A DNA stretch of 64,000 nucleotides from positions 1 through 64,000 of the forward strand of contig JAPPBX010000074.1 in assembly GCA_026702755.1 (NCBI GenBank), given 5' to 3'. This stretch comes from Candidatus Poribacteria bacterium (GTDB lineage Bacteria > Poribacteria > WGA-4E > WGA-3G). Positions 11,608 through 59,499 of the stretch are shown in pieces. Below the pieces are notes generated by a model. The model was not told the DNA's origin. It made no database searches and was given only the letters and a program-made list of their open reading frames with translations. Positions within the stretch are counted from its first letter, which is position 1; each line of letters opens with the position of its first letter. The position numbers and the translations under genes are program-made.

Positions 11608-12444
11608 ATGAGCAATCAGTCCAGAGATGCAGAATATACAATGGGCCGCAGTGAGGAAGAGACACAACGCTTGATCGAGCAATCGCAGCTTTATGACGAT
11701 GTGACACGCCGCTTTTTCCTCAGAAGCGGTATCGCTAAAGGGATGAAAGTACTTGATGTCGGTAGTGGTGCCGGTGATGTGGCACTCACGCTCGCTGAAT
11801 TTGTTGGTCAGGAAGGAAAGGTCGTTGGTGTAGATGTCAACCCTGATGTTCTCAAAACAGCACAAGAACGAGCCGATGCAGCAGGTTTTTCAAACGTTGA
11901 ATTCATTGCCGGTGATGCCCGAACGCTTGAATTTCCAGACGACTTTGATGCCATCGTCGGTAGACTTGTCCTGTTGTATATGTCAGACCCAGCAGAGGCA
12001 CTTAAAACGTTGAGCACTCGTCTTCGCCCCGGCGGAATTGTCGCCTTTCAGGATACTGAACTCGCGCTCTACCGGACGGTTATACATCCGGATACACCTT
12101 TGATAAATCAGTTGGTTGAATGGGGGCTCACAGTGTTTGAACGTTCAGGGGCACATCTCAACATGGGAATGGAACTTTATCGGGTATTCGTTGATGCGGG
12201 TCTGCCTGAGCCTACCTTACACTTTGAGGCTCCGATGGGCGGTCCTGAGGGCTGGCCCGGGTTTGAGTATCTCGCCAACAGTTTTCGGAGCCTCGTTCCG
12301 CTTATGGAGGCGTATGGCATTGCGACAAGTGAAGAGATAGATATCGACACACTTGCAGATCGGATTCAAGCGGAAGTCACGACCTCAAAACGACCGCTCC
12401 TGTTGCCGCCGCACATCACAGCGTATGCCTCCCTACCGACGTAA
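11608..12444 (+). CDS. Class I SAM-dependent methyltransferase (first of tandem pair)
   Basis: A 278-residue Rossmann-fold methyltransferase. Motif I is VLDVGSGAGDVAL (48-60), followed by VVGVDVNPDVLKTA, FIAGDARTLEFP and the PGG turn in LRPGGIVAFQD. This pattern is that of the UbiE/Methyltransf_11 group, which methylates small molecules or quinone precursors; the substrate is unknown. GCGAGG lies 9 bases before ATG 11608. The gene is 13 bases upstream of a close paralogue and probably forms a two-gene operon with it. It has no membrane segment and is cytoplasmic. Confidence 0.85.
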   Translation: MSNQSRDAEYTMGRSEEETQRLIEQSQLYDDVTRRFFLRSGIAKGMKVLDVGSGAGDVALTLAEFVGQEGKVVGVDVNPDVLKTAQERADAAGFSNVEFIAGDARTLEFPDDFDAIVGRLVLLYMSDPAEALKTLSTRLRPGGIVAFQDTELALYRTVIHPDTPLINQLVEWGLTVFERSGAHLNMGMELYRVFVDAGLPEPTLHFEAPMGGPEGWPGFEYLANSFRSLVPLMEAYGIATSEEIDIDTLADRIQAEVTTSKRPLLLPPHITAYASLPT

Positions 12445-12457
12445 AAGGGATCGATGT

Positions 12458-13318
12458 ATGGCGAAAGATCAGGCGAAGAACTTGCCCGCGTCAAATAGCG
12501 ATGCTACCTATACGTTAGGGCGCACCTCCCACGAAACGGATCGTCTCATTGAGCAGTCAAGAATCTATGGGGACTCAACGCAACGTCTCTGCAGACGAGC
12601 CGGTATAACGAAAGGAATGCGGGTGCTGGAAATCGGTAGTGGTGCCGGTGATGTCGCACTCATGCTTGCTGAGCTCGTTGGGCAAGAGGGACAGGTTGTC
12701 GGTGTAGATGTCAATTCGGTAATTCTAAAAACCGCACGCCACCGCGCAACCGAAGCAGGTATGCGGAACGTTGAATTTATTGCTGGTGATGCGCGAACGC
12801 TTGATTTTGGGGATAAATTTGACGCTATTGTCGGGCGATTTGTGTTGATGTATATGGCGGATCCAGGAAAAGCTTTTGCCAAACTCGTAACGCATTTGAA
12901 TCCGCGTGGTATCGTCGCGTTTCAGGAGCCCGAATACACGCTTTACCCAGCACTCTCGCATCCGGACACGCCTCTCATGAACCAACTTGTTAGGTGGATC
13001 TTGGACGTGTTTGAACATTCAGGAGCACATCTTGACATGGGAATCGGTCTTTATCGTGCTTTTGTTGACGCAGGTTTGCCACCACCAACGATGCATCTTG
13101 AGTCTCCAATCGGTGCCGCTAAAACATGGGCAGGCTACCGATATATGGCGACTATTTTCCAAAGTCTCCTTCCGCTTTTAGAGAAGTACGGACTTGCGAC
13201 AGTCGATCAGGTAGATGTCAATACGTTAGCTGCACGTCTTCGGCAGGAGGTACTCGCATCGAAACGTCCGTTTTTCTTACCGCTACATATAACTGCGTAT
13301 GCAGTACGCTCAACCTGA
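12458..13318 (+). CDS. Class I SAM-dependent methyltransferase (second of tandem pair)
   Basis: A 286-residue paralogue of the preceding protein. It has motif I VLEIGSGAGDVAL (57-69), VVGVDVNSVILKTA, FIAGDARTLDF and the same C-terminal pattern (LLASKRP-type ending followed by LHITAYA). ATG 12458 is preferred because AAAGGGA lies just upstream and the paralogue alignment begins there; a frame extending back to 12353 would overlap the first gene. Both copies keep the TLGR/TMGR N-terminal motif followed by ET(D/Q)RLIEQS. The substrate is unknown. Confidence 0.85.
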   Translation: MAKDQAKNLPASNSDATYTLGRTSHETDRLIEQSRIYGDSTQRLCRRAGITKGMRVLEIGSGAGDVALMLAELVGQEGQVVGVDVNSVILKTARHRATEAGMRNVEFIAGDARTLDFGDKFDAIVGRFVLMYMADPGKAFAKLVTHLNPRGIVAFQEPEYTLYPALSHPDTPLMNQLVRWILDVFEHSGAHLDMGIGLYRAFVDAGLPPPTMHLESPIGAAKTWAGYRYMATIFQSLLPLLEKYGLATVDQVDVNTLAARLRQEVLASKRPFFLPLHITAYAVRST

Positions 13319-13418
13319 ATTAACTGAGGATGGTGAAGTCGCATCCTTGGTGCGACAATTTCTGATGATAACAACCGATGGTTGATAAACTGAAAAGGAT
13401 AAAAAATGTAATTTTGGG

Positions 13419-13447
13419 TTGATATGCGGATTGAAATGTGGTATAAT
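13419..13447 (+). promoter_or_regulatory. Strong sigma-70 promoter of the rpsF-dnaB cluster
   Basis: TTGATA (13419-13424), a 17-base spacer and TATAAT (13442-13447), with an extended -10 TGG. The leader to TTG 13600 is about 145 bases, long enough for bS6:bS18-type autoregulation, but no specific bS6/bS18-binding motif was identified. Confidence 0.7.
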
Positions 13448-13599
13448 TTATTACATAAAATTAACTTAACATAATTCCATCTAACCTATAATCGCGCTTT
13501 TGGTGCGCGTGCGTCAGATGGGGTTCACTTAATTAATCTCTGCTCCCTGCTTTTATTGTAGTGGCAGTGGAGCCATTAGTCCGAAGAGAGGCACGAAAT

Positions 13600-14070
13600 T
13601 TGAAACCTTACGAACTCCTGCTTATCATCACGCCTGACCACGATGAAAACGAAGCAGAGGCTCTTACGAATCAAGTGAAGGGCATTATTGAAAACGGGGG
13701 TACCCTCCTGAAAGTTGATCCGTGGGGCAAGAAGCGACTCGCCTATCCAATCCGGAAACGGAGTGAAGGCTATTATGTGCTCTATATTTTTGAGTGCGAA
13801 ACGAGTTTTGTCGCGGAACTGAACCAATCCTTGCATGTCATTGAAGCGATTTTGCGCTATATGGTCGTCCAATATGAGGATGATATTGAGAAGTTGAAAG
13901 CGGAACTCACCGGCGAGACAGGCGAGGATAAGGAATCGACGTCAGATGAGAAACCCACATCGGATCAAGAATCAACACCGAGTGAAGATTCGACATCGGG
14001 TGATGATACAGCAACTGAAGAGACAACAGATGATGATGCAGCGGCTGAAGATGCAACAGAATCTGCCTAA
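13600..14070 (+). CDS. rpsF: 30S ribosomal protein bS6
   Basis: A 156-residue protein. The N-terminal KPYELLLIITP, the central WGKKRLAYPIRKRSEGYYVLYIF and ILRYMVVQYEDD are diagnostic of bS6, which binds 16S rRNA together with bS18. TTG 13600 is chosen because bS6 normally begins M-(R/K)-x-Y-E and GAGAGG lies 8 bases upstream; GTG codons at 13561 and 13567 would add an unusual extension. The last ~50 residues are an acidic Thr/Glu/Asp-rich tail, longer than usual but reminiscent of the glutamate tail in other species. It heads the rpsF-ssb-rpsR-rplI-dnaB cluster. Confidence 0.95.
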   Translation: MKPYELLLIITPDHDENEAEALTNQVKGIIENGGTLLKVDPWGKKRLAYPIRKRSEGYYVLYIFECETSFVAELNQSLHVIEAILRYMVVQYEDDIEKLKAELTGETGEDKESTSDEKPTSDQESTPSEDSTSGDDTATEETTDDDAAAEDATESA

Positions 14071-14153
14071 ATAAGCGTCATCTAAATTTAAGCGAGTTTT
14101 TGGCTTGTAGGCAACCTCCAAAGGTCCGAGCCTACAGATGAAGAGGAGAAACC

Positions 14154-14624
14154 ATGGCAAGTTACAACAAGGTCATCTTGATGGGAAATCTGACTCGCGA
14201 CCCTGAAGTAAAATTCCTGCCGAGCGGGACAGCTGTCGCGAATTTTGGGTTGGCTATGAATGAAAGTTACACGGATCAGCAGACTGGTGAAAAGAAAGAG
14301 TCCGCCTGTTTTGTTGACGTAGAAGCATGGGGTAGACAAGCTGAGATTGTAGGTGAATATTTCAGTAAAGGCAGACCGATTTTGGTTGAAGGTTCCCTCA
14401 AATACGATTCGTGGGAAGCCGAGGATGGCACTAAGCGGAACCGACTTAAAGTCCGCCTGCAACGGTTCCAATTTGTTGGGCGACGCGATGAAGATGAGAT
14501 GGGCGGTGGTTACGCGGATGCTCAACCTGCAGCGGCACCAACACAGTCCGCGCCTTATGAAGATGCGCCTGCACCTGCACCGAGCAGCACACCTTCCGCA
14601 ACGGAAGACGACATCCCGTTTTAA
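14154..14624 (+). CDS. ssb: Single-stranded DNA-binding protein
   Basis: A 156-residue protein. The N-terminal OB fold (VILMGNLTRDPEVKFLPSG, then ANFGLAMNESY and ILVEGSLKYDSWE) is followed by a Pro/Ala-rich linker and the conserved acidic tip DDIPF, which recruits replication and repair proteins. ATG 14154 follows GAGGAG. Its place between rpsF and rpsR is the standard arrangement. Confidence 0.95.
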   Translation: MASYNKVILMGNLTRDPEVKFLPSGTAVANFGLAMNESYTDQQTGEKKESACFVDVEAWGRQAEIVGEYFSKGRPILVEGSLKYDSWEAEDGTKRNRLKVRLQRFQFVGRRDEDEMGGGYADAQPAAAPTQSAPYEDAPAPAPSSTPSATEDDIPF

Positions 14625-14630
14625 ATATGG

Positions 14631-14750
14631 CTATCAGCCGTCGGCGATCAGGCATCAGTCTATTAACCATCGGTTCTCTATCAGCAAAGACCGCGTTGAC
14701 GACGCGATCTTTGCTGATTGCTGATTGCTGACCACTGACGGCTATACTAA
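14631..14750. repeat. Hairpin repeat between ssb and rpsR
   Basis: TCAGCAAAGACCGCG (14681-14695) pairs with CGCG-ATCTTTGCTGA (14703-14717). Flanking CTGATTGCTGATTGCTGA-like runs add outer pairing. It belongs to the same loose family as the repeats before mlaF, before dprA and at 61585-61624. It may attenuate or stabilise the ribosomal operon mRNA. Confidence 0.5.
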
Positions 14751-14769
14751 AAAAAGGAACTGAATTGAT

Positions 14770-14970
14770 ATGGCATTCCGTCGCAGGCAGCGCTACAACA
14801 AAATTGAGTCTTTCGACTACAAAGATGTAGATATGCTGCGAAAATTTATTAATGAACGTGGCAAAATTGTGAGTCGCCGGGTTACGGGACTATCGGCGAA
14901 ACAACAGCGAATGGTGACGCGTGCAGTGAAGCGCGCACGCAATATGGCACTCTTGCCATTTACACGATAG
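14770..14970 (+). CDS. rpsR: 30S ribosomal protein bS18
   Basis: A 66-residue basic protein. [19 protein letters not shown] and the C-terminal [11 protein letters not shown] are the bS18 signature. It pairs with bS6 on the 30S platform. AAGGAA lies upstream of ATG 14770, and the length is normal for the family. Confidence 0.95.
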
Positions 14971-15036
14971 ATAAAAGTGGGGTTTCAGGCATAATAGAAC
15001 CGGTTGCCCTACAAAAAATAGTTTAGGTTTTCAATT

Positions 15037-15483
15037 ATGGAAGTGATTCTAAAGAAAAGTGTGGAAGGGCTCGGGGCACCGGGCGATGTATTGAAGGTCG
15101 CAGATGGCTATGCACGCAACTACCTGATCCCGATGCAGCTGGCGGTGCATGCAACGGAACGGAATCGTCGCCACCTTGAGCATGAGAAACGAGTAATTGA
15201 CCACCAGGAAGCGAAAGATAAAGAGCACGCGCAGGAAATCGCTGCGCAGATGGCTGGTGTTACATGCACACTGAGTCGGCGTGCCGGCGAAAACGACCGG
15301 CTTTTTGGTTCTGTTACCTCTATGGATATTGCTGAGGTTGTACGGGCTCAGGGCTTCGACTTGGAACGCCGATTCTTTGAACTTGTAGAACCGATTCGTG
15401 AACTCGGTGTGTTTATGGTGCCCGTCAGGTTGCATACGGATGTTATTGTTGAACTCCGTGTTGTTGTTGAACGTGAAGAATAA
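15037..15483 (+). CDS. rplI: 50S ribosomal protein bL9
   Basis: A 148-residue protein. The N-terminal EVILKKSVEGLGAPGDVLKV and GYARNYLIP are the bL9 signature. The long central helix and the C-terminal domain (GENDRLFGSVTS, then ELGVFMVPVRLH) are complete. It follows rpsR and is followed after 2 bases by dnaB, so dnaB translation may be coupled. Confidence 0.95.
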   Translation: MEVILKKSVEGLGAPGDVLKVADGYARNYLIPMQLAVHATERNRRHLEHEKRVIDHQEAKDKEHAQEIAAQMAGVTCTLSRRAGENDRLFGSVTSMDIAEVVRAQGFDLERRFFELVEPIRELGVFMVPVRLHTDVIVELRVVVEREE

Positions 15484-46902: not shown

Positions 46903-46939
46903 TTGTGTTTCGCGACACTTGGTGCTATCATTTGAAATA
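46903..46939 (+). promoter_or_regulatory. Promoter-leader module, copy A
   Basis: TTGTGT (46903-46908), a 17-base spacer and TATCAT (46926-46931), with an ATG 7 bases later at 46939. The leader that follows contains CCAATTACCAATCAA and CATGATG. It aligns in spacing and sequence with the module at 51964-52000 before the WD40 gene. Confidence 0.55.
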
Positions 46940-46986
46940 TGAAAACCAATTACCAATCAAACCCCATGATGCAAAGAGGAAAGTAT

Positions 46987-49900
46987 ATGAAAAACCGCAA
47001 AATTTTTATCGTATTTGTTTGCCTGTTGACATTAATTTTGGAAAATTATCAAAGCGTTGAAGCGCAACAGAATCTTGCACAACAGGCGTATGCGATCTTT
47101 GAACAAAACTGCCTCAACTGCCACGGGGAACACGGTGCCTATACGGAACAACTGATCATTGAACATGCAGCGTTGGTGGCACCCGGGGGGGCAGTAATTC
47201 CGGGGAATCCTGAAGCGTCTGAGTTCTATCAGCGGTTGATTGAAACTGCGCCAGAGAGACGGATGCCACTCAACGCACCTCCATTATCACAGGCAGCGAT
47301 TGACACCATTCGAGATTGGATCGCTGTCGGGGCACCGGATTGGCGAGACACCTTTGAAGTAGAGAGCACCTTCATCACGCCCAAGGAAATGCTTGAGACG
47401 ATTGAGAATCACGTTAACTCACTGGCACCTTTTGACCGCACTTTCGCACGCTATTTTACACTCACACATCTCTATAACGCTGGCGAAACGACTGAGGCTC
47501 TCCTTGCCTATCGGCGCGCACTCTCAAAACTCGTGAATAGCCTCTCTTGGGGACGTAAGATTAGTAACCCACGACCCATTGATTTGAAAGAAACAATATT
47601 CTATATCGACCTCCGAGACTACGAATGGGAGATCGGAATCAATCGATGGACACTAATTGAGGCGGAATACCCTTACGGGATTGACTTCAACGCGCCAACA
47701 CAGACCGCACTCCGTGAAAAATTAACAAACCTACGCGCAGAAATGGATTGTGAAGTGCCGTTTGTTCACGTGGACTGGTTCCTTGCGACTGCATCTTTGC
47801 CACCGCTCTACCACGACATTCTCGGTCTTCCTGAGACAGATCGGGAGTTGGAAACACGGCTTGAGGTGAATGTTGTCGAGAATCTTCGGAACGCAGCCGG
47901 AAGACGCGTCTGGCGTGCGGGGTTCAACGAGTCGGGTGTGTCCAATCATAATCGCGTTGTGGAACGTCACGAATCGCGATATGGTGCGTATTGGAAAAGC
48001 TACGACTTTGCGGGGAGTGTGGGTTCACAGAATATCTTTACACATCCGTTGTCCTTCACTCACGACGGTGGTGAGATTATCTTCAACCTCCCTAACGGCT
48101 TGCAAGCATACCTGTTAGTAGATGCCGGAGGCAACCGACTTAATGAAGCACCGATAAGCATCGTTCGGAATCCTGCTGCGAGCGATCCAACCGTCCGCAA
48201 CGGACTCTCTTGTATCGGTTGCCACACAGAAGGGATGAAGGTGTTTGAAGATGAGGTGCGTGGTGTTGTTGAGCAGAACCCGAACCCACCCTTTAACAAA
48301 GACCGGGCATTGCGGCTTTATACGGATCAAGCGACGATGGATGTGCTTGTGGCAGAAGATACGCAACGTTATAGGGAAGCACTTTGGGAAGCAGGTGGGG
48401 TGTTTGGTGGCATTGAACCGATCCAGCGATTCCATGAGGCGTTCCAAGGTCCGGTGGATGCATCGCACGCCGCAGCTGCTGTGGGATTAGAAACCGAGGC
48501 GTTTCTCAAAAATATTCGTCAGAATGCAAGTTTACAAAATTTGGGGTTGTTGGTGTTAGAGAATGGCACCATGAAACGGGATACATGGACAGAGCAATTT
48601 AGTGAAATTGTGTTTGCTCTGGATTTTCCGAGTCGAAAAACCCCAACAGTTGATCCGCAAGTGGAAATCATCCCTGGGGAATCGATTTACATTCCGGATC
48701 CAAATCTACGTACAGCACTCGCACAAATACTCGTTCAACCTGTTGATGTTCCGATTACTGTGAGACAAATGGAAAGTTTTACTTACTTCGGAGTACATGG
48801 GAGTCATACAACTACTATTGGAGATACTCCAAATGTACTAAGAGGGAAAGGTATAAAAGATCTAACAGGATTAGAATATGCCAAAAATCTAAGAGAATTG
48901 GTATTTGAAGATAACGAGGTATCGGATCTATCCCCACTCGCGAGTCTTATAGCACTTGAAGAACTTAGATTTTCTCAGAATAATATTTCAGACCTTTCCC
49001 CGATTGCTGGTCTGACAAAGATTCGTGGTTTGAATATGGAGCATAATCCAATATCAGATCTTTCCGCACTTGCAGACATGTCAGAGTTAGAATCGATACA
49101 ATTTAGCCATAATTTCCTTGTCACTGAAATTTCAGTCTTAGCTGGAAAAGAAAAGTTAAAAAGTGTTCTGATGTGGGGTCCTCCAATCCATGATATGTCG
49201 CCGTTGGCGGAACTCCCTAATATTGAAACAATAGACTTGTGTGGGAATAAAATATCAGAAATACCCTCTTTAGAGAACGCCCCGAATTTGAAAAAATTGT
49301 ATCTTGTCAGCAACCAGATATCAAGTGTCTCTGTTTTACAGAATCTAAAGGGTTTAGAGAGTTTGAATCTGAGTGGCAACAACATCACAGATATATCGCC
49401 GTTAGCTGGGTTGACACACCTAAAGTGGCTGCGTCTCAGTGAGAACAATATATCGGACGTATCTGCTTTGGCAGGACTTATCAACTTGGAGCATTTGGAC
49501 CTTCGCGGCAATCCGATAACAGATTTTTCACCTTTAGAGGCACTCTCCCAAAATACAAATATACTTACTGGTGAGGTGGCTATACCCGATCTAAACCTCC
49601 GCGCCGCAATTGCAGAAGCACTTGGCAAAGGTGGCACTACAATTGTTTCAATTACAGCAGAGGAGATGGCAACGCTGACAAAACTTGATGCGAGTGGCAG
49701 GGGTATTCAAAATTTGACAGGACTTGAATATGCTATAAATTTAGAGGATTTATCCGCAATTGACAACCAAATAACCGACCTCTCGCCTCTCTCTGAGCTA
49801 ATCAACTTGAGAGTATTGAGTGTCTATCATAATCCAATAGAAAGTTTAACCCCGATCGCGGGTTTATCAAACTTAGAATACATAACCCTTATAGGAGATG

Positions 49901-51876
49901 GTGGAATATCGGACATCTCTCCTCTTGCTGGATTTGTCAAACTCAGACATTTTCTGACATGGGGTAACCCAATTTCTGACCTTTCTCCTCTCGCTGGCTT
50001 GACCCAATTGGAAACTATGGATATTTGTGGGTCAGAAGCATCTGATATTTCACCACTGGCCAAGTTAACAGGACTAAAGGAATTGTATCTTTCCAACAAC
50101 GGTATCTCCGACGTATCTCCGTTGTCAGGCTTAACAAGTTTAACACGATTAGTGCTCGAAAATAATGAAATCTCTGACGTATCTCCGTTAGCAGCGTTAA
50201 CGCAACTAAAATGGTTAAGGCTTGACCACAATTCTATATCCGATTTTTCATCTTTAGCAGGGCTGTCCGAGACAACCATTTCTCGTACCTTCAACCCGGG
50301 TGCCCCGACAGGGGGTCCGAAAATAGAGGGTCCCTGGTTATGGGTGACCGTACCGGGCGAACGTCTTGACAGAACGACAGACCGATTGGCTGAAGCAAGT
50401 GAAGGCATTGTAACAGAGCAATATATCGCTACTAACGGTGCCCGGGAAGGAACCTCTGTTGGGAACAGTTTGTGGACCGCAGGTGAAATTTCTCCTTTGC
50501 GACGAGAAACTAACATTATTAAAATGTTGGACTCTCTCGGTATTGAAACAGATAGCAATAATAATGGTCTTATCATCTACGGTTCTATCACCCTGGATTC
50601 ACCGCGTAAACAAGACACAAAGATGTTCGTCGGCAGCGGGGATAGGGTGAAAGTCTGGCTCAATGGAGAATTGGTTCATCAAGTTTTCGTTTGGCGCAGA
50701 GCTTATGATTATCAGGATTATTTCCCAGTTACATTGAAACGAGGAACAAATGTCTTGTTAGTCGCAGTTGACAAGGGACCTGGTTACGGGTGGAGCGGCT
50801 TTTTTGGCTTTGAAGAAGGCACGGAGTATATGGTGTCAAATCCGCGTGTCGGGTACAACTTTTCCGAATCGACAATCCATGTGAGTGATACTTTCACGCT
50901 TGATATTAGTGCAGAAAATATCTATGATTTAGCAGGCTGGCAATTTGATATTGTATTCGATCCTACAGTGCTTGAAGCGGTTGAAGTCAACAAAGGCGAT
51001 TTTCTGAAAACAGGAGGCGAAGCAACCTTCTTCCAAAAAGGAACAATTGATAACACGACCGGCAAAATTACCAAACTGAGTTCAGCAAGACTCAGCGAAG
51101 ACGGGGTCAGCGGTAAAGGAACGCTTTTATCGGTGACATTCACAGCAAAAACAGTTGGACAGACGCAGTTGAAACTCGAAAACTTTCAACTCGCTTCTAT
51201 CACGGGTGTGTCCATCCCCGCGGAGCCACATGAGGTCGCTATTACTGTAGAAGGGCAACTCGTTACCGGGGATGTGAATCGGGATGGACAGGTGAGCATC
51301 TTGGATATGGTGCTTGTTGCTCGACACTTCGGAAAAACCGTGCCTGCCGACTCGGAAATTGACATGAATGGTGATGGTGTTATCAATATCCAGGATCTTA
51401 TCATTGTGGCACAACATCTCGGTGAATCAACCGTATCAGCCGCACCTTCCATGATAGCAGAAGAACTGAATCCTGCGATGGTCCAGGCGTGGATAGCACA
51501 AGCACAGGTTGAAAACGACGGCTCTATTGCCTTCCAACAGGGTATCGCGAACCTGCAACGCCTCTTAGCATCGCTGATTCCTGAGGAGACAGCACTGCTG
51601 CCGAACTATCCGAATCCGTTCAATCCAGAGACGTGGATCCCGTATCAACTCTCCGAACCGGCGGAGGTTACTTTGACGGTTTATGCTGTCCATGGAACAA
51701 AGGTTCGCACTTTAGCGTTGGGATTGATGCCTGCGGGTATCTATCAAAGTCGTAGCCGCGCCGCCTACTGGAACGGCAAAAATGACGTAGGTGAGTCTGT
51801 GGCGAGTGGTGTCTATTTTTATACGCTTACCGCAGGAGAGTTCACATCAACACGTAAAATGTTAATCCGCAAGTAG
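46987..51876 (+). CDS. Giant exported protein: haem c motifs, leucine-rich repeats, cohesin, dockerin and type-IX-like C-terminal tail
   Basis: A 1629-residue protein. A signal peptide (1-26) is followed by a planctomycete-type cytochrome c segment with CLNCH (Cys42, Cys45, His46) and a second haem motif CIGCH near 409. Two internalin-like leucine-rich blocks (about 568-860 and 867-1095, repeat type SDLSPLAGLTQL) follow. A beta module (about 1105-1285), a cohesin-like domain (about 1290-1422), two calcium-loop dockerin repeats (GDVNRDGQVSILDM and IDMNGDGVINIQDL, about 1428-1480) and a C-terminal PNPFNPETWIPYQL tail of the Por-secretion type come next. It is probably a cell-surface electron-transfer or adhesion protein. 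AGAGGAAAG supports ATG 46987; ATG 46939 is an in-frame alternative. Confidence 0.85.
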   Translation: MKNRKIFIVFVCLLTLILENYQSVEAQQNLAQQAYAIFEQNCLNCHGEHGAYTEQLIIEHAALVAPGGAVIPGNPEASEFYQRLIETAPERRMPLNAPPLSQAAIDTIRDWIAVGAPDWRDTFEVESTFITPKEMLETIENHVNSLAPFDRTFARYFTLTHLYNAGETTEALLAYRRALSKLVNSLSWGRKISNPRPIDLKETIFYIDLRDYEWEIGINRWTLIEAEYPYGIDFNAPTQTALREKLTNLRAEMDCEVPFVHVDWFLATASLPPLYHDILGLPETDRELETRLEVNVVENLRNAAGRRVWRAGFNESGVSNHNRVVERHESRYGAYWKSYDFAGSVGSQNIFTHPLSFTHDGGEIIFNLPNGLQAYLLVDAGGNRLNEAPISIVRNPAASDPTVRNGLSCIGCHTEGMKVFEDEVRGVVEQNPNPPFNKDRALRLYTDQATMDVLVAEDTQRYREALWEAGGVFGGIEPIQRFHEAFQGPVDASHAAAAVGLETEAFLKNIRQNASLQNLGLLVLENGTMKRDTWTEQFSEIVFALDFPSRKTPTVDPQVEIIPGESIYIPDPNLRTALAQILVQPVDVPITVRQMESFTYFGVHGSHTTTIGDTPNVLRGKGIKDLTGLEYAKNLRELVFEDNEVSDLSPLASLIALEELRFSQNNISDLSPIAGLTKIRGLNMEHNPISDLSALADMSELESIQFSHNFLVTEISVLAGKEKLKSVLMWGPPIHDMSPLAELPNIETIDLCGNKISEIPSLENAPNLKKLYLVSNQISSVSVLQNLKGLESLNLSGNNITDISPLAGLTHLKWLRLSENNISDVSALAGLINLEHLDLRGNPITDFSPLEALSQNTNILTGEVAIPDLNLRAAIAEALGKGGTTIVSITAEEMATLTKLDASGRGIQNLTGLEYAINLEDLSAIDNQITDLSPLSELINLRVLSVYHNPIESLTPIAGLSNLEYITLIGDGGISDISPLAGFVKLRHFLTWGNPISDLSPLAGLTQLETMDICGSEASDISPLAKLTGLKELYLSNNGISDVSPLSGLTSLTRLVLENNEISDVSPLAALTQLKWLRLDHNSISDFSSLAGLSETTISRTFNPGAPTGGPKIEGPWLWVTVPGERLDRTTDRLAEASEGIVTEQYIATNGAREGTSVGNSLWTAGEISPLRRETNIIKMLDSLGIETDSNNNGLIIYGSITLDSPRKQDTKMFVGSGDRVKVWLNGELVHQVFVWRRAYDYQDYFPVTLKRGTNVLLVAVDKGPGYGWSGFFGFEEGTEYMVSNPRVGYNFSESTIHVSDTFTLDISAENIYDLAGWQFDIVFDPTVLEAVEVNKGDFLKTGGEATFFQKGTIDNTTGKITKLSSARLSEDGVSGKGTLLSVTFTAKTVGQTQLKLENFQLASITGVSIPAEPHEVAITVEGQLVTGDVNRDGQVSILDMVLVARHFGKTVPADSEIDMNGDGVINIQDLIIVAQHLGESTVSAAPSMIAEELNPAMVQAWIAQAQVENDGSIAFQQGIANLQRLLASLIPEETALLPNYPNPFNPETWIPYQLSEPAEVTLTVYAVHGTKVRTLALGLMPAGIYQSRSRAAYWNGKNDVGESVASGVYFYTLTAGEFTSTRKMLIRK

Positions 51877-51963
51877 AACGGCAGTGGTAGAGGAATAAAA
51901 AAGTAGGGTGGAAGTTAAATGCCTTTCACCCTATTCGTCTTTAACGGACACACTGGAAAGATT

Positions 51964-52000
51964 TTGCCCTTCCAGACTTTTTGTGTTATCGTATAAAGTA
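51964..52000 (+). promoter_or_regulatory. Promoter-leader module, copy B
   Basis: TTGCCC (51964-51969), a 17-base spacer and TATCGT (51987-51992), with ATG 7 bases later at 52000. The first codons after it (CCTAATTTCCAATCAA) resemble copy A. That ATG opens a 9-codon frame ending at TGA just before the AAGGAG of the WD40 gene. Confidence 0.5.
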
Positions 52001-52049
52001 TGGTGCCTAATTTCCAATCAACGCTATGATGTGGGGCTAAGGAGAAAGC

Positions 52050-53918
52050 GTGACGAACCATAAATATTTCATCATAAGCATCGGTCTACTACTCATATTC
52101 ACCTTAGGGTACCAAGATGTTAATGCACAACAACTACCTTTCGGTGCCAAAGCCCGACTCGGTAGCAATAAAGGCGAGATAAGCGACGTAGCGTTCACAC
52201 CAGACGGCACGCAAATCGCAGTTGCAAGTAGCGTCGGTATTTGGCTATATGATGCTGCTACGGGTACTGAAACCGCCTTGGAACCCGCAACGCCGTTTGG
52301 GGTTTCTGCGATTGCCTTCTCACCCGATGGCAAGACGCTTGCAACAGGCAGTGAGGAAGGCGCGATTTGGTTACGGCGTATAGATACAGGCGCAATTAGG
52401 CATTTTTCTCCTTTGCATACGCGAAAAATTTCTTCAGTTGCGTTTTCATTGGACGGTAAGACGCTCGCCAGCGGAAGTTTTGATAAGACGATTGGGTTAT
52501 GGGATACAGAGACCGGTAAACTTCGTAGCCACCTCAGCGGACATACAGAGGATGTCAACATCGTTGCGTTTTCACCGAATGGCAAAGTGCTTGCCAGCGG
52601 GAGTTCAGACAGGACGGTGCGTTTGTGGAATCCGGAAACAGGTGAATTGCGGAAAACCTTCTCTCGGCATGATAACATTAATAATATTATTACTGAATTA
52701 GCGTTTTCACCGGATGGCAAAACGATTGCCAGTGGCGGGACTGAGTGGCCAACGCTTTATGTATGGGATATAAAAACCGGTGAAGTGCAGGTGGAGCATC
52801 ATTCACATAACTGGTCAGTTGACGCTTTAGCATTCTCACCAGATGGGACAAAACTCGCTATAGGCGGAGATTCAGATGCAGTTGAATGGATAACTCCAAC
52901 AGATGTATTGCCGACAGATCATCCGGGGTGGGTGACTGCACTGGCATTCTCAGCAGACGGCAAAACGCTTACGACAATAACGCGAGATGGCACAATCCGA
53001 TTTTGGGACATAACGAACGGTGAACAACGCTTTCCCGCCATAGCCCATAAAAGCGTTGGAACCGCGTTGGCGTTTTCACCGGACAGTCGGACGCTTGCCA
53101 CGGGGAACGCCGATGATACAATCCTTCTGTGGGATATTGAGAGAGAAAAGGCAGAAACGATCCGTCATGAAAGTATGAGGGCTTTGACAGCATTGGCATT
53201 TTCACCCGATGGTACCACACTCGCGAATGGGAACGCTAACGATACAATCCATTTGTGGGATATGAGGACAGGCAAGGCGTTGTTGATTCGCCGTGAGGAC
53301 ATGAAAGCCCCGACGACCTTGGCGTTTTCATCAGATGGCACCACACTCGCCAGCGCAGGATTGTCTCAGAGAATTTGGTGGTGGGATGTCCGAAGCGGCG
53401 AGGTACTCGGAGCTGTTAGAATAATTGATGAAGTACCCTCTGAAATGGTTGCATTTTCGCCAGATGGTACAATCCGCGCAAGTGTGGACCGGAATAACGT
53501 AGTCCGCCTGTGGGATACGATTAATGGCAAATTATTATCCACTTTCATTGGTGATGAACGCAATGTGAGGGCAATCGCGTTTTCACCCGATGGCAGTCTA
53601 TTCGCGAGTGGTGGATGGGGTGCGTTTTCACTGTGGGATGTGCTTCGGCACCGAAGAATCGCGACTTCCGCAGGAGACCATCATTTAATACGGACCTTGG
53701 CATTTTCGATTGGTGGGGAGACACTGGTAAGTGGATGTATTGCTGGCAAAGTCCAGTTATGGGAGGTCGCCACTGCTGCTCACCTTACAACGCTCATAGA
53801 TGATACCGAGCCAGTGAATGTGGTTGCGTTTTCACCAGATGGCAAGGTGCTTGCCAGTTGGAGTGCTGGGGGCGCAATTCTGCTATGGGATTGGGATAAG
53901 ATCCGTCCAGATCAATAA
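52050..53918 (+). CDS. Exported WD40-repeat protein (14 repeats)
   Basis: A 622-residue protein. A signal peptide (1-26, ending VNA) is followed by LPFGAKARLGS and 14 WD40 repeats, each of the form AFSPDGK.LASG...I.LWD. Fourteen repeats fit two seven-bladed propellers. It lacks any enzymatic domain, and probably scaffolds proteins or ligands in the periplasm or at the surface. GTG 52050 follows AAGGAGAAAGC. It shares its N-terminal module with the cytoplasmic WD40 protein at 57667 and its promoter-leader with the giant protein upstream. Confidence 0.9.
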   Translation: MTNHKYFIISIGLLLIFTLGYQDVNAQQLPFGAKARLGSNKGEISDVAFTPDGTQIAVASSVGIWLYDAATGTETALEPATPFGVSAIAFSPDGKTLATGSEEGAIWLRRIDTGAIRHFSPLHTRKISSVAFSLDGKTLASGSFDKTIGLWDTETGKLRSHLSGHTEDVNIVAFSPNGKVLASGSSDRTVRLWNPETGELRKTFSRHDNINNIITELAFSPDGKTIASGGTEWPTLYVWDIKTGEVQVEHHSHNWSVDALAFSPDGTKLAIGGDSDAVEWITPTDVLPTDHPGWVTALAFSADGKTLTTITRDGTIRFWDITNGEQRFPAIAHKSVGTALAFSPDSRTLATGNADDTILLWDIEREKAETIRHESMRALTALAFSPDGTTLANGNANDTIHLWDMRTGKALLIRREDMKAPTTLAFSSDGTTLASAGLSQRIWWWDVRSGEVLGAVRIIDEVPSEMVAFSPDGTIRASVDRNNVVRLWDTINGKLLSTFIGDERNVRAIAFSPDGSLFASGGWGAFSLWDVLRHRRIATSAGDHHLIRTLAFSIGGETLVSGCIAGKVQLWEVATAAHLTTLIDDTEPVNVVAFSPDGKVLASWSAGGAILLWDWDKIRPDQ

Positions 53919-53981: not shown

Positions 53982-56900
53982 CTAAGGCCATTTGATCACA
54001 TAGTTAGACGGCACCTCACGAACGAACATGGACATGGAACGATCCCGATCTCCGGTGCGATACGTCGTAGACGACAGATAGAGCTGGTTTTGCGCACGGG
54101 TCATGCCGACGTAGAAAAGACGACGCTCCTCTTCAATTTCTGCTTCAGTAATATTCTGTTTCCACATCGGGAAACTTCCCTCCTCCATGCCGAGAATGAT
54201 AACGATTGGAAATTCTGTTCCTTTCGCTGCGTGTAACGTCATTAAGGTCAATTGCTCGGTCTTATCGTCGAGTTCATCAATATTGGTGAGCAGCTTCTGA
54301 TAATCCAGGAAGTTGGTGAGCTGATGCTCGTCATTTACGGATTCAAAATGGATGACTGCGTTCATAAACTGAATACGGCGTTGTTGCCATTCGATATCTT
54401 CTCGGAACTCTGGGACAACGGTATCTTGTAGTTCTTCCATATATGCTGTTGCTTCTGCTGCTTCCGAGGCTTCGAGCGGTAGACGATCCGGCAGCACAGC
54501 ATTGTGTGTCTGGGCAAAACGCTTCGCAGCATTGAGCAACGCATCGGTTTCGGTTAAGCTATCTCTTGTATCGGCTACTTCTTGTTGCGATACCTCCGTT
54601 TTGGCGAGGATACCAAGCCCGACGAGCGGTAGAAGTTCGGTGAGGGATTTCACTTCACGTTTGTAAGCATCGATTTTGATGAGTTCTTTGAAGATCTCTC
54701 TATTGACGCTAACATCCTCTAAGGCACCGTGTAAACGCCCGTGTTCAATGCCAAATTTTTCAGCAAGTGCCCCCATATTACACCGTTGTCGTGGGAAAAG
54801 TCTGCGTGCTGTAGCGAGTGTATCGTAATGTGGCGCGGATAAGTCCCTTTTCAAGTATCTTCTTAAGTCACGCGCAAGGATTGGATTATCGTATTCCGCT
54901 ACATTGTGCCCAATCAAAATCCTATCATGGATGAACCCAAAGAATTCAGGCAATACCATTTCAATTCCGGGTGAATCTTTGACGGTCTCTGCGTCAATTT
55001 GATGAATGCGAGTGGCTGAACGAGGGATATGTCCGCCCGGTGGTTTTACCAAGCAGTAGTACCGTTCAACCTCATCGCCGATTGGGCTAAGACGATGCGC
55101 TGCGATTTCAACAATTTCCGCTGTTTTCGGATTGATGCCGGTGGTTTCCAAATCATAGACAACCATGTCCGCCATGTTTGGACTTTCATAGCGATTGATG
55201 AGACGTTGGCAAAGTTTGAGTGCCGCAATACTCCGAACACCTTCAGTTTCAAGACGGATTACGTCGCTATCTGCTGTATCTGCCGTACCGATGAGAATAA
55301 CCCGTGCGTCCTGTCCTTTTTCTCCAAGTGCTTCAAAATCACCAATAAGTAGATGCACGCCGTTGTCCGGCTGTGTCGGTCTATTATCATCAGGAGATAG
55401 GAATTGGAGTTGCACACTCTGGTTTAGATAGGTTTCAAGCGTTTGATGAATGATATGTGCTGCGCAATACTCATCAATCCCATGGCTGGCAGTAATCTGA
55501 ATCGGTTCACCAAGGTCAATCGCGCTGTAAAGGACATCCTGTATAGTTGCTAAGTTAGGTAAATCCGGTTGTTTTTCGATGACCTCCAGTTCTTCGGCGC
55601 GATAAGGTGAGCGTGAGATTTCCAAAGCATCAAAGAGTTTCTGGATGATTTTATCAATTTTCTCGCCTTCGATTTCAGTTGACAGTTTCTCAAGTTGCGT
55701 CCAAAATTGGCGGACATTTCGGCGAGTCAAGGGACCAACATCTTCTGGATATGCCTCAATATTTTTCAGTAGTTCCATGAACGCAATGCCTTTGCGCGCC
55801 GCGATCCATTTGAGACGCACCCATGTCAAATCGTCGATATGCGTTTCAGGAAAATTGATCGCGCGTTCGAGGTCTTGTGGAAGTCGCCACTGAATGAAAC
55901 GGAGGTAAGCGAGAATCCCTTTGCTATTTCCTTCGCCAAAAGAATTCGTCGGTAGAATCCGCTGGAATCTGATGTCTGCGCGCAGCAACTGTTCTACCAG
56001 AACATCTGCAAGTTTGTGGGTTCGGTAAAAGACCGCAATGTCGCGGTAAGAGTAATTACGCTGCGTTACCAAACTCTGGATAACATTAATGATGCCAAGT
56101 GCTTCCGCGATAGGTGTATCAAAGGTATAGTGAAAAATGTCTCGTCCCGCATCCTTATGGGTTCTGAGCGTGTGCTGCTTTTGGCGATCCGGGTTTCTGG
56201 AGATAACTTCCTCCGCAGCGCGCAAGATTTTCTCACTGCACCGGTAATGGTCATCGAGTTCAAGCGTCCGCGGGTTGAAATCCGTTTTGAAATCATCAAT
56301 ATACTGTGGGTCCGAGCCGCGCCAACTATAGATAGATTGGTCTTCGTCTGCGACTACCATGAGATTATGCTCAGGTGCAGCACAGAGCAATTGGAGTAGA
56401 TGATACTGCACACGGTTCACATCGTGGAATTCGTCAACGAGAATATAGGAGATCTCTTGATGATAGGCTTCCTGTACTTCTTCCACCCGCAACAGTTCGA
56501 CGGTTTTCAGAAGGAGATCATCGAAATCGAGCGCGTCGTATTCGTCGAGTTTGCGCTGATAGATTTGCAACAAATTTCGGATATTTTCAAGAGTCTCGGA
56601 GTCGTAAATATCCGTCTCATTTACTGCATCAACAGGGTTCTGTAGTGTGCATTTAGCATCACTGATGATGTTTCTTAGCAACCATGGTGGGTAGTCGTCA
56701 GCGTTGAGGCTCAGTTCACTGACGCTTTCTGTTAAGATCTCGTCTTGGAGTTCTTGATCAAAGATGGTAAAATTTTCGCTTAATCCAATCTTCAGCGCGT
56801 GTTTCCGAAGCACTTTGACACAGAATGCGTGGAAGGTGCAAGCCTTAACACTGGATCCGTGCGGTTCACCAATTTCGTTGTTGATGCGTTCCTGCATCTC

Positions 56901-57095
56901 TTCCGCTGCTTTGTTGGTAAATGTAATCGCAAGGATCTTCTCTGGCCTGATATTGTGTTCGCGAATCAGGTGCTCAATGCGGTGTGTAATGACTTTCGTT
57001 TTCCCTGTACCAGGACCTGCGATAACGAGTAGGGGACCGTTTTTATGTGTTACCGCTTCTTTCTGTTTTTCATTTAATTCGTGGAGAATGTTCAT
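53982..57095 (-). CDS. UvrD/PcrA-like helicase with inserted DnaQ-type 3'-5' exonuclease
   Basis: A 1037-residue protein. Superfamily 1 helicase motifs include AGPGTGKT (26-33), DEFHDVN (221-227, with His and Val for the usual Gln and Thr), DQSIYSWRG (252-260), LMTLHAAKGTEF (about 945) and RRLFYVGMTRA (about 985). Between motifs IV and V lies a DEDDh exonuclease (about 642-800): VVYDLETTG, HNVAEYDNPILARDL and HGALEDV. This combines unwinding with 3'-5' DNA degradation in one chain. GGAGGG precedes ATG 57095. It is transcribed away from DUF4926 and the second WD40 gene. Confidence 0.9.
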   Translation of the reverse strand: MNILHELNEKQKEAVTHKNGPLLVIAGPGTGKTKVITHRIEHLIREHNIRPEKILAITFTNKAAEEMQERINNEIGEPHGSSVKACTFHAFCVKVLRKHALKIGLSENFTIFDQELQDEILTESVSELSLNADDYPPWLLRNIISDAKCTLQNPVDAVNETDIYDSETLENIRNLLQIYQRKLDEYDALDFDDLLLKTVELLRVEEVQEAYHQEISYILVDEFHDVNRVQYHLLQLLCAAPEHNLMVVADEDQSIYSWRGSDPQYIDDFKTDFNPRTLELDDHYRCSEKILRAAEEVISRNPDRQKQHTLRTHKDAGRDIFHYTFDTPIAEALGIINVIQSLVTQRNYSYRDIAVFYRTHKLADVLVEQLLRADIRFQRILPTNSFGEGNSKGILAYLRFIQWRLPQDLERAINFPETHIDDLTWVRLKWIAARKGIAFMELLKNIEAYPEDVGPLTRRNVRQFWTQLEKLSTEIEGEKIDKIIQKLFDALEISRSPYRAEELEVIEKQPDLPNLATIQDVLYSAIDLGEPIQITASHGIDEYCAAHIIHQTLETYLNQSVQLQFLSPDDNRPTQPDNGVHLLIGDFEALGEKGQDARVILIGTADTADSDVIRLETEGVRSIAALKLCQRLINRYESPNMADMVVYDLETTGINPKTAEIVEIAAHRLSPIGDEVERYYCLVKPPGGHIPRSATRIHQIDAETVKDSPGIEMVLPEFFGFIHDRILIGHNVAEYDNPILARDLRRYLKRDLSAPHYDTLATARRLFPRQRCNMGALAEKFGIEHGRLHGALEDVSVNREIFKELIKIDAYKREVKSLTELLPLVGLGILAKTEVSQQEVADTRDSLTETDALLNAAKRFAQTHNAVLPDRLPLEASEAAEATAYMEELQDTVVPEFREDIEWQQRRIQFMNAVIHFESVNDEHQLTNFLDYQKLLTNIDELDDKTEQLTLMTLHAAKGTEFPIVIILGMEEGSFPMWKQNITEAEIEEERRLFYVGMTRAQNQLYLSSTTYRTGDRDRSMSMFVREVPSNYVIKWP

Positions 57096-57609: not shown

Positions 57610-57666
57610 GCTTAGTGCTCGTGTTAGGCAGTGAAGCACACTTATTATCTCGCAGATTTAGACGAC

Positions 57667-59499
57667 ATGAACACCCAAAACCCACAACCCTACACGCAAT
57701 GGGAGCTTCCCACAGGTGCTTTGGCGCGCCTCGGCAAAGGCGGAATAGCGGATATTCAGTATTCACCAGATGGGATCCGTCTTGCTGTTGCCTCTTATAT
57801 CGGTGTCTGGTTGTATGATGCACATACCTGCACCGAACTCGCACTCCTTAAGCATGGACAGGATCAAGGTGCTGTTTCGCTCGCTTTTTCGCGCGATGGT
57901 ACAATCCTTGTAACTGGAAATGGGGATGATACGATTTCGCTATGGGATGTCTACACTGGCCAGCGTCACTCCATAATGAGACTCGGAAATGCTGAAGATG
58001 AAGTCTGGGCATTCGTAGTCTCACCGGATGGCAAAACCCTCATCAGCGGGGGACTGGATGGGAAAATCCAATTTTGGGACATTCACACAGGTCGCCTGCA
58101 CTTTGAGAGCATCGGACATGCATATCCTATCACGACCTTGGCGTTGTCACCGGATGGCAAAACCCTTGCGAGTGGGAGTAATGACTTCACCATCAATCTC
58201 TGGGATGCCCATACAGGAAGACAGCTCTCCACCCTCACAGGACATACACATAACGTTATGGCGTTGGCGTTCTCTCCCAACGGCATAAATCTCGTCAGTG
58301 GCAGTCGGGACGAGACGCTCTGCTTATGGGATACCACTACCGGCGAAAAATTAGAAACTCTCGCCACCGACATCGGTGTTACCGGTAATTTGGAGTTTTC
58401 ACCCGATGGGACATTCCTCGCGAGTGGGAGTGGTGACCAGACCGTTCGGCTCTGGAATGCGGATACAGGCACCGAACAGGCAACTCTCACGGGACATAAA
58501 GATGGTATTTGCGGCATCTCTTTCTCTCCCGATGGAAAAACGATTGCCAGTGCGAGTGGTGATCATACCATTCGTTTTTGGGATCCTGCTACCGGTGCAG
58601 AGAAAGCAATTATTGACGGGCATATTGAGTGGATTAATGCCGTAACATTCTCTCCTGACGGGAATCTCCTCGCCAGCGGCAGTGATGACGAAACGCTTCG
58701 ATTGTGGGACCTGTCCACCTACACTGCGTCTCAAACCCTCAACGGCCATGAATATCTGATTGAGGATGTCGCGTTTTCATCGGATGGTGAAATCCTCGCA
58801 AGCGCAAGTCAAGATGAAAGGATTTGCTTGTGGAATGTGAATGCTGGCATCGAGATGGCGATCTTGGATCATACGGATATGGTTACCGCATTGGCGTTTG
58901 CGCCGAACAGTCCTAAACTCGCGAGCGGCGGTGAAGACAACGCTGTTCGATTGTGGGATGTTGATACTGGAGAGCAATTAGCAGTCTTAGCGGGCCATAC
59001 CGATATTGTTACGACAGTAGCATTTTCACCGAACGGAAGAACCCTTGCGAGTGGCAGTGAGGATAACACAATTCGGTTATGGAATGCGATCACTGGTCAT
59101 TATCTCGCTGTGCTTACAGGCCATACCGATGTTGTTAAGGCGGTTGCGTTTTCACCGGATGGAAACATTCTTGCCAGTGGGAGTTCGGACAACACCATTA
59201 GACTTTGGGATGTGAACAGTTGTCAGCATATAACCACCCTTATAGGCCATACCGATACTGTTGAGACCGTCGCGTTTTCGCCAGATGGACGCACGCTTAT
59301 AAGCGGCGGTGATACTGAAGATAACACGATCCGTTTATGGGATCCTGCCACCAACCAGCAGCGTGCACTCATTAAGAACTTTAGAGTTCGCACATTGGCA
59401 TTCAGTCCTGATGGCAGAACCCTTGCCAGTGGCAGCGCAGACGGGACAATCTTTATCTGGGATCTCGCAACTGTTGAGGCTACATATAATTTAGTCTAA
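57667..59499 (+). CDS. Cytoplasmic WD40-repeat protein (14 repeats)
   Basis: A 610-residue protein (622 if GTG 57631 is used). ELPTGALARLGKGGIADI matches the first blade of the exported WD40 protein, but no signal peptide is present. Fourteen repeats (SPDGKTLASGS, TIRLWD) fit two seven-bladed propellers. It is a protein-interaction scaffold with no catalytic domain. Neither ATG 57667 nor GTG 57631 has a good ribosome binding site. A REP-type palindrome follows the gene. Confidence 0.88.
   Translation: MNTQNPQPYTQWELPTGALARLGKGGIADIQYSPDGIRLAVASYIGVWLYDAHTCTELALLKHGQDQGAVSLAFSRDGTILVTGNGDDTISLWDVYTGQRHSIMRLGNAEDEVWAFVVSPDGKTLISGGLDGKIQFWDIHTGRLHFESIGHAYPITTLALSPDGKTLASGSNDFTINLWDAHTGRQLSTLTGHTHNVMALAFSPNGINLVSGSRDETLCLWDTTTGEKLETLATDIGVTGNLEFSPDGTFLASGSGDQTVRLWNADTGTEQATLTGHKDGICGISFSPDGKTIASASGDHTIRFWDPATGAEKAIIDGHIEWINAVTFSPDGNLLASGSDDETLRLWDLSTYTASQTLNGHEYLIEDVAFSSDGEILASASQDERICLWNVNAGIEMAILDHTDMVTALAFAPNSPKLASGGEDNAVRLWDVDTGEQLAVLAGHTDIVTTVAFSPNGRTLASGSEDNTIRLWNAITGHYLAVLTGHTDVVKAVAFSPDGNILASGSSDNTIRLWDVNSCQHITTLIGHTDTVETVAFSPDGRTLISGGDTEDNTIRLWDPATNQQRALIKNFRVRTLAFSPDGRTLASGSADGTIFIWDLATVEATYNLV

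Follow-up and report, generated by a model that had tools for sequence, protein, structure and literature searches.

Helicase-nuclease fusions are known from RecB, AddA and AdnA, from DinG, and from WRN, in which a helicase of the 3'-5' class and a DEDD 3'-5' exonuclease share a single chain. In UvrD and PcrA, subdomain 2B touches the duplex at the fork, and in the mismatch excision of E. coli the partners of UvrD are RecJ/ExoVII or ExoI/ExoX. We know of no earlier case of a nuclease in the 2B subdomain of a PcrA-like helicase, nor of one nuclease lying within the remnants of a second, inactivated one. S. aureus DinG is a helicase-family protein with an N-terminal DEDDh exonuclease (PMC12345164), and Cdc45/GAN represents a RecJ-family element that works with a helicase (PMC3307487). 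Here, we analyzed a gene in a 64,000-nucleotide stretch of a Candidatus Poribacteria genome (GCA_026702755.1, contig JAPPBX010000074.1; hereafter the window), which encodes a UvrD/PcrA-type SF1A helicase with a nested RecJ-like/DEDDh insert (Table 1).

Table 1. Features of the helicase-exonuclease gene and their positions in the window.
Feature	Coordinates	Strand	Evidence or motifs
Whole gene	53982..57095	-	UvrD/PcrA-type helicase of 1037 aa, hosting the nested RecJ-like/DEDDh insert
Helicase subdomains 1A, 1B and 2A, with the initial part of 2B (aa 1-496)	55608..57095	-	Pfam; AlphaFold2 pLDDT mostly 80-95; Foldseek PcrA/UvrD
Walker A (aa 26-33) and motif II (aa 221-227)	within 55608..57095	-	AGPGTGKT; DEFHDVN
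RecJ/DHH-derived segment, first half (aa 498-641)	55173..55604	-	C-terminal end SIAALKLCQRLI, similar to RecJ GVAFKLAQGLI
DEDDh 3'-5' exonuclease domain, predicted activity (aa 643-806)	54678..55169	-	D648, E650, D736, H789, D794
RecJ/DHH-derived segment, second half (aa 807-860)	54516..54677	-	SLTELLPLVGLGIL, similar to RecJ LLDLVALGTVVD
Return to helicase: last part of 2B, followed by 2A (aa 898-1037)	53985..54404	-	motif V TLHAAKGTEF; motif VI EERRLFYVGMTRA

Pfam matched the 1037-aa protein with UvrD-helicase (PF00580, aa 7-273, E 6.8e-84), with UvrD_C (PF13361, aa 280-1010) as a split match, and with RNase_T (PF00929, aa 645-802, E 4.6e-26), the profile of which was covered in full. The first-pass annotation of the window had placed a complete DEDDh exonuclease, of the proofreading type and distinct from the RecB-type nucleases, at about residues 642-800 between SF1 helicase motifs. 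Pfam, the motifs, and AlphaFold2 bear this out and set the domain at aa 643-806, in subdomain 2B between helicase motifs IV and V; PDDEXK is absent from the protein. In searches of PDB sequences, the helicase flanks matched PcrA, UvrD, and Rep, and the insert matched the PolC exonuclease. WD40-repeat genes flank the gene (window 46939-53918 and 57631-59499), and a large leucine-rich-repeat/dockerin-like secreted protein is encoded farther off. No operon partner is evident among the window neighbours, and comparison between fusion-bearing genomes revealed no conserved operon or gene neighbours across classes.

The helicase part belongs to the SF1A UvrD/PcrA group: it contains both Pfam domains, Walker A, the DExx motif, and motifs III-VI. 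AlphaFold2 modelled its core as PcrA/UvrD-type with good confidence, and the best Foldseek matches were PcrA and UvrD. It does not qualify as a named equivalog (PcrA, UvrD, or Rep), scoring 522 bits against an NCBIfam cut-off of 911 bits for PcrA. The helicase residues examined were invariant over 46 homologues apart from one R259T. Motif II indeed reads DEFHDVN in the window protein, as had been pointed out, but it is not distinctive: most relatives carry DEYQDIN or DEYHDVN, and we dropped this motif as a special feature because it reflects lineage variation. By analogy with the family, the helicase is expected to translocate 3'-5' in an ATP-dependent manner.

The exonuclease contains the motifs VVYDLETTG (aa 645-653), HNVAEYDNPI (730-739), and HGALEDV (789-795), with the four acidic residues and the histidine of DnaQ-like DEDDh enzymes in motifs ExoI-III. 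The core acidic residues, on which the first-pass annotation had made its proposal depend, are thus all present. AlphaFold2 predicted a DEDDh fold with pLDDT mostly >90, and its structural relatives were PolC, epsilon, DnaQ, and ExoX. Embedded as it is in a helicase, the domain is not of the stand-alone DnaQ/epsilon type with a clamp- and alpha-binding tail. Of the 46 homologues, 43 have all DEDDh residues intact, and we infer that the domain has 3'-5' exonuclease activity. Two proteins of one genus (L030 and L031) and L032 have lost DEDDh residues while keeping the helicase, which indicates that some lineages can do without the exonuclease. Judged from this residue conservation, the exonuclease appears to be under selection in most lineages, not in all.

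On both sides of the exonuclease, aa ~498-641 and ~807-860 are non-helicase sequence that is inserted as well, and they form a degenerate RecJ (DHH) domain enclosing the exonuclease. This nesting accounts for the size of the insert, which, aligned to a plain Poribacteria UvrD, takes up roughly 375 residues in place of 20; the site lies between the helix ...YVLKVT and ...IEELINA, in the second half of 2B. What had been described as a lone exonuclease inserted in a helicase is therefore present, but it is carried within a larger RecJ-derived module. The consensus of the insert flanks, GEPIQI..SYGIDEYCAAHIIHQTL...SIAALKLCQRLI [exonuclease] SLTELLPLVGLGIL, runs parallel to the RecJ consensus AI.GEKI.IYGDYDTDGTTATALL...GVAFKLAQGLI...LLDLVALGTVVD. 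When the insert without its exonuclease was compared with 30 Poribacteria RecJ proteins, hhalign returned a probability of 93.7% (E 1.9e-7), which became 96.2% (E 2.3e-9) when fusions from outside Poribacteria were added and 96.0% (E 4.6e-9) with trimmed alignments. As controls, 30 column-shuffled RecJ reached at most 0.7%, and the 2B segment itself gave 0.2% against RecJ. Another control, an unrelated WD40 cluster, matched the insert at 99.1%; this match was traced to 19 ragged columns in an alignment rich in gaps and fell to 0.2% once trimmed, with RecJ still at 96%, and it was discarded. An HMMER profile of the segment preceding the exonuclease retrieved real RecJ proteins from E 2.3e-9 down, and no shuffled RecJ was among the matches listed. 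The reverse search, with a RecJ HMM against the fusions, was marginal (best E 0.011). A blind PDB search with the same pre-exonuclease segment gave six matches, all weak (E 0.1-1.5), with Cdc45 and RecJ on top: Cdc45, three RecJ, 7bhi (presumably a DHH-family protein), and one designed protein. Since a Pfam scan of the insert minus the exonuclease gave no DHH match at E up to 10, the RecJ homology is visible only at the profile-profile or HMMER-profile level. The RecJ-like segment is degenerate: in motif I, RecJ GDYDxDG has become ASHGIDE, with the first Asp gone, the DHH motif is lost, and Pfam found neither DHHA1 nor RecJ_OB in the window protein. The flanks are thus homologous to the RecJ DHH domain but lack an intact motif I DxD and DHH motif, and the protein is not a RecJ enzyme. 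AlphaFold2, run from a shallow alignment on the whole protein and on the insert by itself, resolved neither the RecJ-like segment nor how the exonuclease is placed on the helicase.

As to the INTERMEDIATE, a profile search of 338 genomes was followed by extended sampling. This yielded ten free-standing RecJ proteins in 386 sampled genomes, under five family codes (L176, L204-L212), in which the DEDDh sits at exactly the point that it occupies in the window insert. One of them (L176, 742 aa, from G292) has intact GDRDTDG and DHHEP motifs, is matched by Pfam DHH, DHHA1, and RecJ_OB, scores above the NCBIfam RecJ cut-off (505 versus 397 bits), and carries its DEDDh between SACGVAFKFAQALL and NNLDLVALSTLAD. 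Two further proteins of 540 aa (L192 in G355 and L200 in G216) have no helicase and appear to consist of a degenerate RecJ plus a DEDDh that looks active; RecJ, once it had captured a DEDDh, seems to have been inactivated outside helicases as well. Stand-alone RecJ-DEDDh proteins of other lineages are the likely source of the insert, and the argument for a common source of the helicase- and RecJ-embedded DEDDh rests on the shared insertion point: a single clade of both was not rejected (p-AU 0.16), yet it was not shown by a tree of 167 columns. On the simplest path, a DEDDh would have entered RecJ, the N-terminal module of the resulting protein would then have moved into 2B of a UvrD-like helicase, and RecJ catalysis would have decayed in the helicase host. 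Such a traceable path, from RecJ through RecJ with DEDDh to a module in UvrD that has lost RecJ catalysis, makes a clear case of domain nesting.

The fusion is present in most of the 85 Poribacteria genomes analyzed, including a full-length homologue (L042) that is 79% identical to the window protein. In other Poribacteria it recurs with an open frame and, as the first-pass annotation had proposed to check, at the same insertion site, which excludes chance or a frame error. Outside Poribacteria we detected it in G329, G193, and G339, which belong to one four-genome phylum, in G319 and G144, and in 21 of 40 genomes of the phylum of G429, all inside three families. Viral contigs gave only distant DEDDh matches and no fusion. 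When contigs were scanned with the full alignment, matches to ordinary UvrD crowded out the rest. In a helicase-core tree, 22 fusions fell on one side of a branch (100/99) and 29 plain UvrD on the other, with the plain UvrDs of Poribacteria in a separate clade (100/100); the embedded exonucleases of the fusions likewise formed a single clade (98/93). From these single clades, by helicase core and by exonuclease, the fusion is judged to be ancient and probably of single origin. Two diverged copies stand in tandem in one genome (G014, L027:8472-11663 and 11870-15061), and another (G013) has two copies on separate contigs. Plain UvrD occurs besides the fusion in nearly every Poribacteria genome; that of G023 (L251:1097-4480) is 1128 aa long, with an intein-like CLPAGTLVQTPNG ... 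HNYIANSICVHN that splits motif III (VVGDDDQ^SIYSWRGAD), and the long UvrD frames of G017, G019, G021, and G005 may have the same intein-like cause. The first-pass annotation had allowed that such a fusion might already be widespread and characterised. It is widespread, whereas no published description of the fusion, of a RecJ with a DEDDh, or of 2B insertions was found in the open-licence literature, and the fusion is uncharacterised so far as searchable literature goes.

We read the protein as an SF1A helicase in which part of 2B has been replaced by a RecJ-DEDDh module, the RecJ part serving as a dead scaffold and the DEDDh as a coupled 3'-5' exonuclease with a WRN-like logic, and we put the probability of this reading at about 0.6. 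Other explanations have to be weighed against the repair proteins that these genomes encode. Of the 85 Poribacteria genomes, 75 have a Pfam RNase_T match, which in 73 cases is confined to the fusion protein or to contig-end fragments of it. Only G015 and G001 have stand-alone copies, and beyond these no stand-alone DnaQ, ExoI, ExoX, or Orn of the RNase_T family was found in the 85 genomes, a search that DEDDy and very divergent DEDDh proteins would escape. The fused exonuclease might thus substitute for an absent replicative proofreader (DnaQ/epsilon) and edit 3' ends in trans at the fork, given that almost every Poribacteria genome with an RNase_T-family match has it here alone and that its nearest solved relatives are the PolC and epsilon exonucleases. 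However, some members have a dead exonuclease or none, and the DnaE of the window genome retains all PHP ligands (FVHLHNH, LDG, DHG, GCEAY, YHLTLL, TGC, NDCHY), which makes it probable that replicative proofreading is intrinsic to DnaE in this genome. The window genome (G000) has two DnaE-type polymerases (G000:C115 and G000:C51; L241, L242), both with the complete ligand set HHDHEHCDH, the pattern used as the criterion for an active PHP (PMC12926913); the frame of the second is extended at length on the N-terminal side. We therefore hold a proofreading substitute to be distinctly unlikely. Ten Poribacteria genomes, some >90% complete, have no RNase_T match at all, so the fusion gene is useful but not essential.

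An end-resection enzyme acting in place of RecBCD/AddAB, which had been suggested from the sequence, would agree with an SF1 helicase and a nuclease on one chain, as in RecB/AddA. This role has become less likely: the window genome encodes an AddAB-like pair with PDDEXK domains, and a motor and an exonuclease that both run 3'-5', as presumed here, would trim 3' tails to blunt ends instead of producing such tails. It is also improbable that the insert has chiefly a structural or regulatory role, as a pseudo-RecJ like Cdc45 that tunes the helicase and leaves the exonuclease secondary. The degenerate RecJ part is retained even where the exonuclease is dead, and Cdc45 is the RecJ-family component of the CMG helicase (PMC3307487), but the retention of DEDDh residues in so many homologues would be difficult to account for unless nuclease activity were under selection. 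Finally, it is very unlikely that the protein is a helicase-nuclease of anti-phage defence, akin to Gabija/GajB or a related system. PADLOC GajB models do match the helicase part, but these matches reflect the general UvrD fold, no GajA partner is obvious next to the gene in the window ORF list, and phylum-wide conservation with single-clade inheritance fits a housekeeping gene.

A helicase-coupled 3'-5' exonuclease for repair or mismatch excision is the most likely function, and a specialised repair enzyme, as first proposed, remains plausible. In this enzyme, about 20 residues of 2B would have been swapped for the module of a RecJ already bearing the DEDDh; the RecJ part, its catalytic motifs and C-terminal domains gone, would now be a scaffold that leaves the DEDDh site in place. 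The motor would move 3'-5' on single-stranded DNA, and 2B would hold the 3'-5' exonuclease beside the single-/double-strand junction, where it could act in a coupled manner on the 3' ends that the motor exposes or trails, degrading them at the junction or behind it. The fusion would so supply a 3'-5' single-strand exonuclease step in mismatch excision or in 3'-end trimming at forks or recombination intermediates. Because nearly all these genomes lack a detectable ExoI/ExoX/DnaQ-type copy, it may fill that step; this makes a testable claim on 3'-end excision in a large uncultured phylum. The window genome also encodes MutS1 and an intact RecJ. The parallel to E. coli mismatch excision would lie in a single chain that joins the helicase to a dead relative of one exonuclease type and a living relative of the other. 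More tentatively, and with doubt, one may imagine a phylum-wide enzyme of three layers (helicase, pseudo-RecJ, and DEDDh) as a self-contained excision machine that replaces separate UvrD and exonuclease steps in mismatch or fork repair, the dead RecJ being to this helicase what Cdc45 is to CMG, in hosts without stand-alone DnaQ/ExoI/ExoX-type enzymes.

Compared with described systems, the window protein shares all helicase motifs and the 1A/1B/2A/2B layout with UvrD, PcrA, and Rep, and differs by the about 375 aa that replace about 20 aa in 2B; relative to plain UvrD, that of Poribacteria included, the fusions are a clade of their own. Its insert flanks align colinearly with the DHH domain of RecJ but lack the catalytic DxDxD, the DHH motif, DHHA1, and OB, and they sit inside a helicase. 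The likeness to Cdc45/GAN is one of analogy only, these being separate subunits of a hexameric helicase without a DEDDh. DinG is also a bacterial helicase-family protein fused to a DEDDh, but it is an XPD-like SF2 helicase of 5'-3' polarity with an N-terminal exonuclease, and the window protein is not XPD-like SF2. In WRN, the helicase and the DEDD exonuclease share a chain and, as we infer here too, a polarity, whereas its helicase is of the SF2 RecQ type, its exonuclease is N-terminal and not nested, and the two arrangements are not homologous. RecB, AddA, and AdnA likewise combine an SF1A helicase with a nuclease, but theirs is a C-terminal PDDEXK domain, and genuine PDDEXK proteins are encoded elsewhere in the window genome. 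The fusion thus belongs to the known class of SF1 helicase-nuclease fusions.
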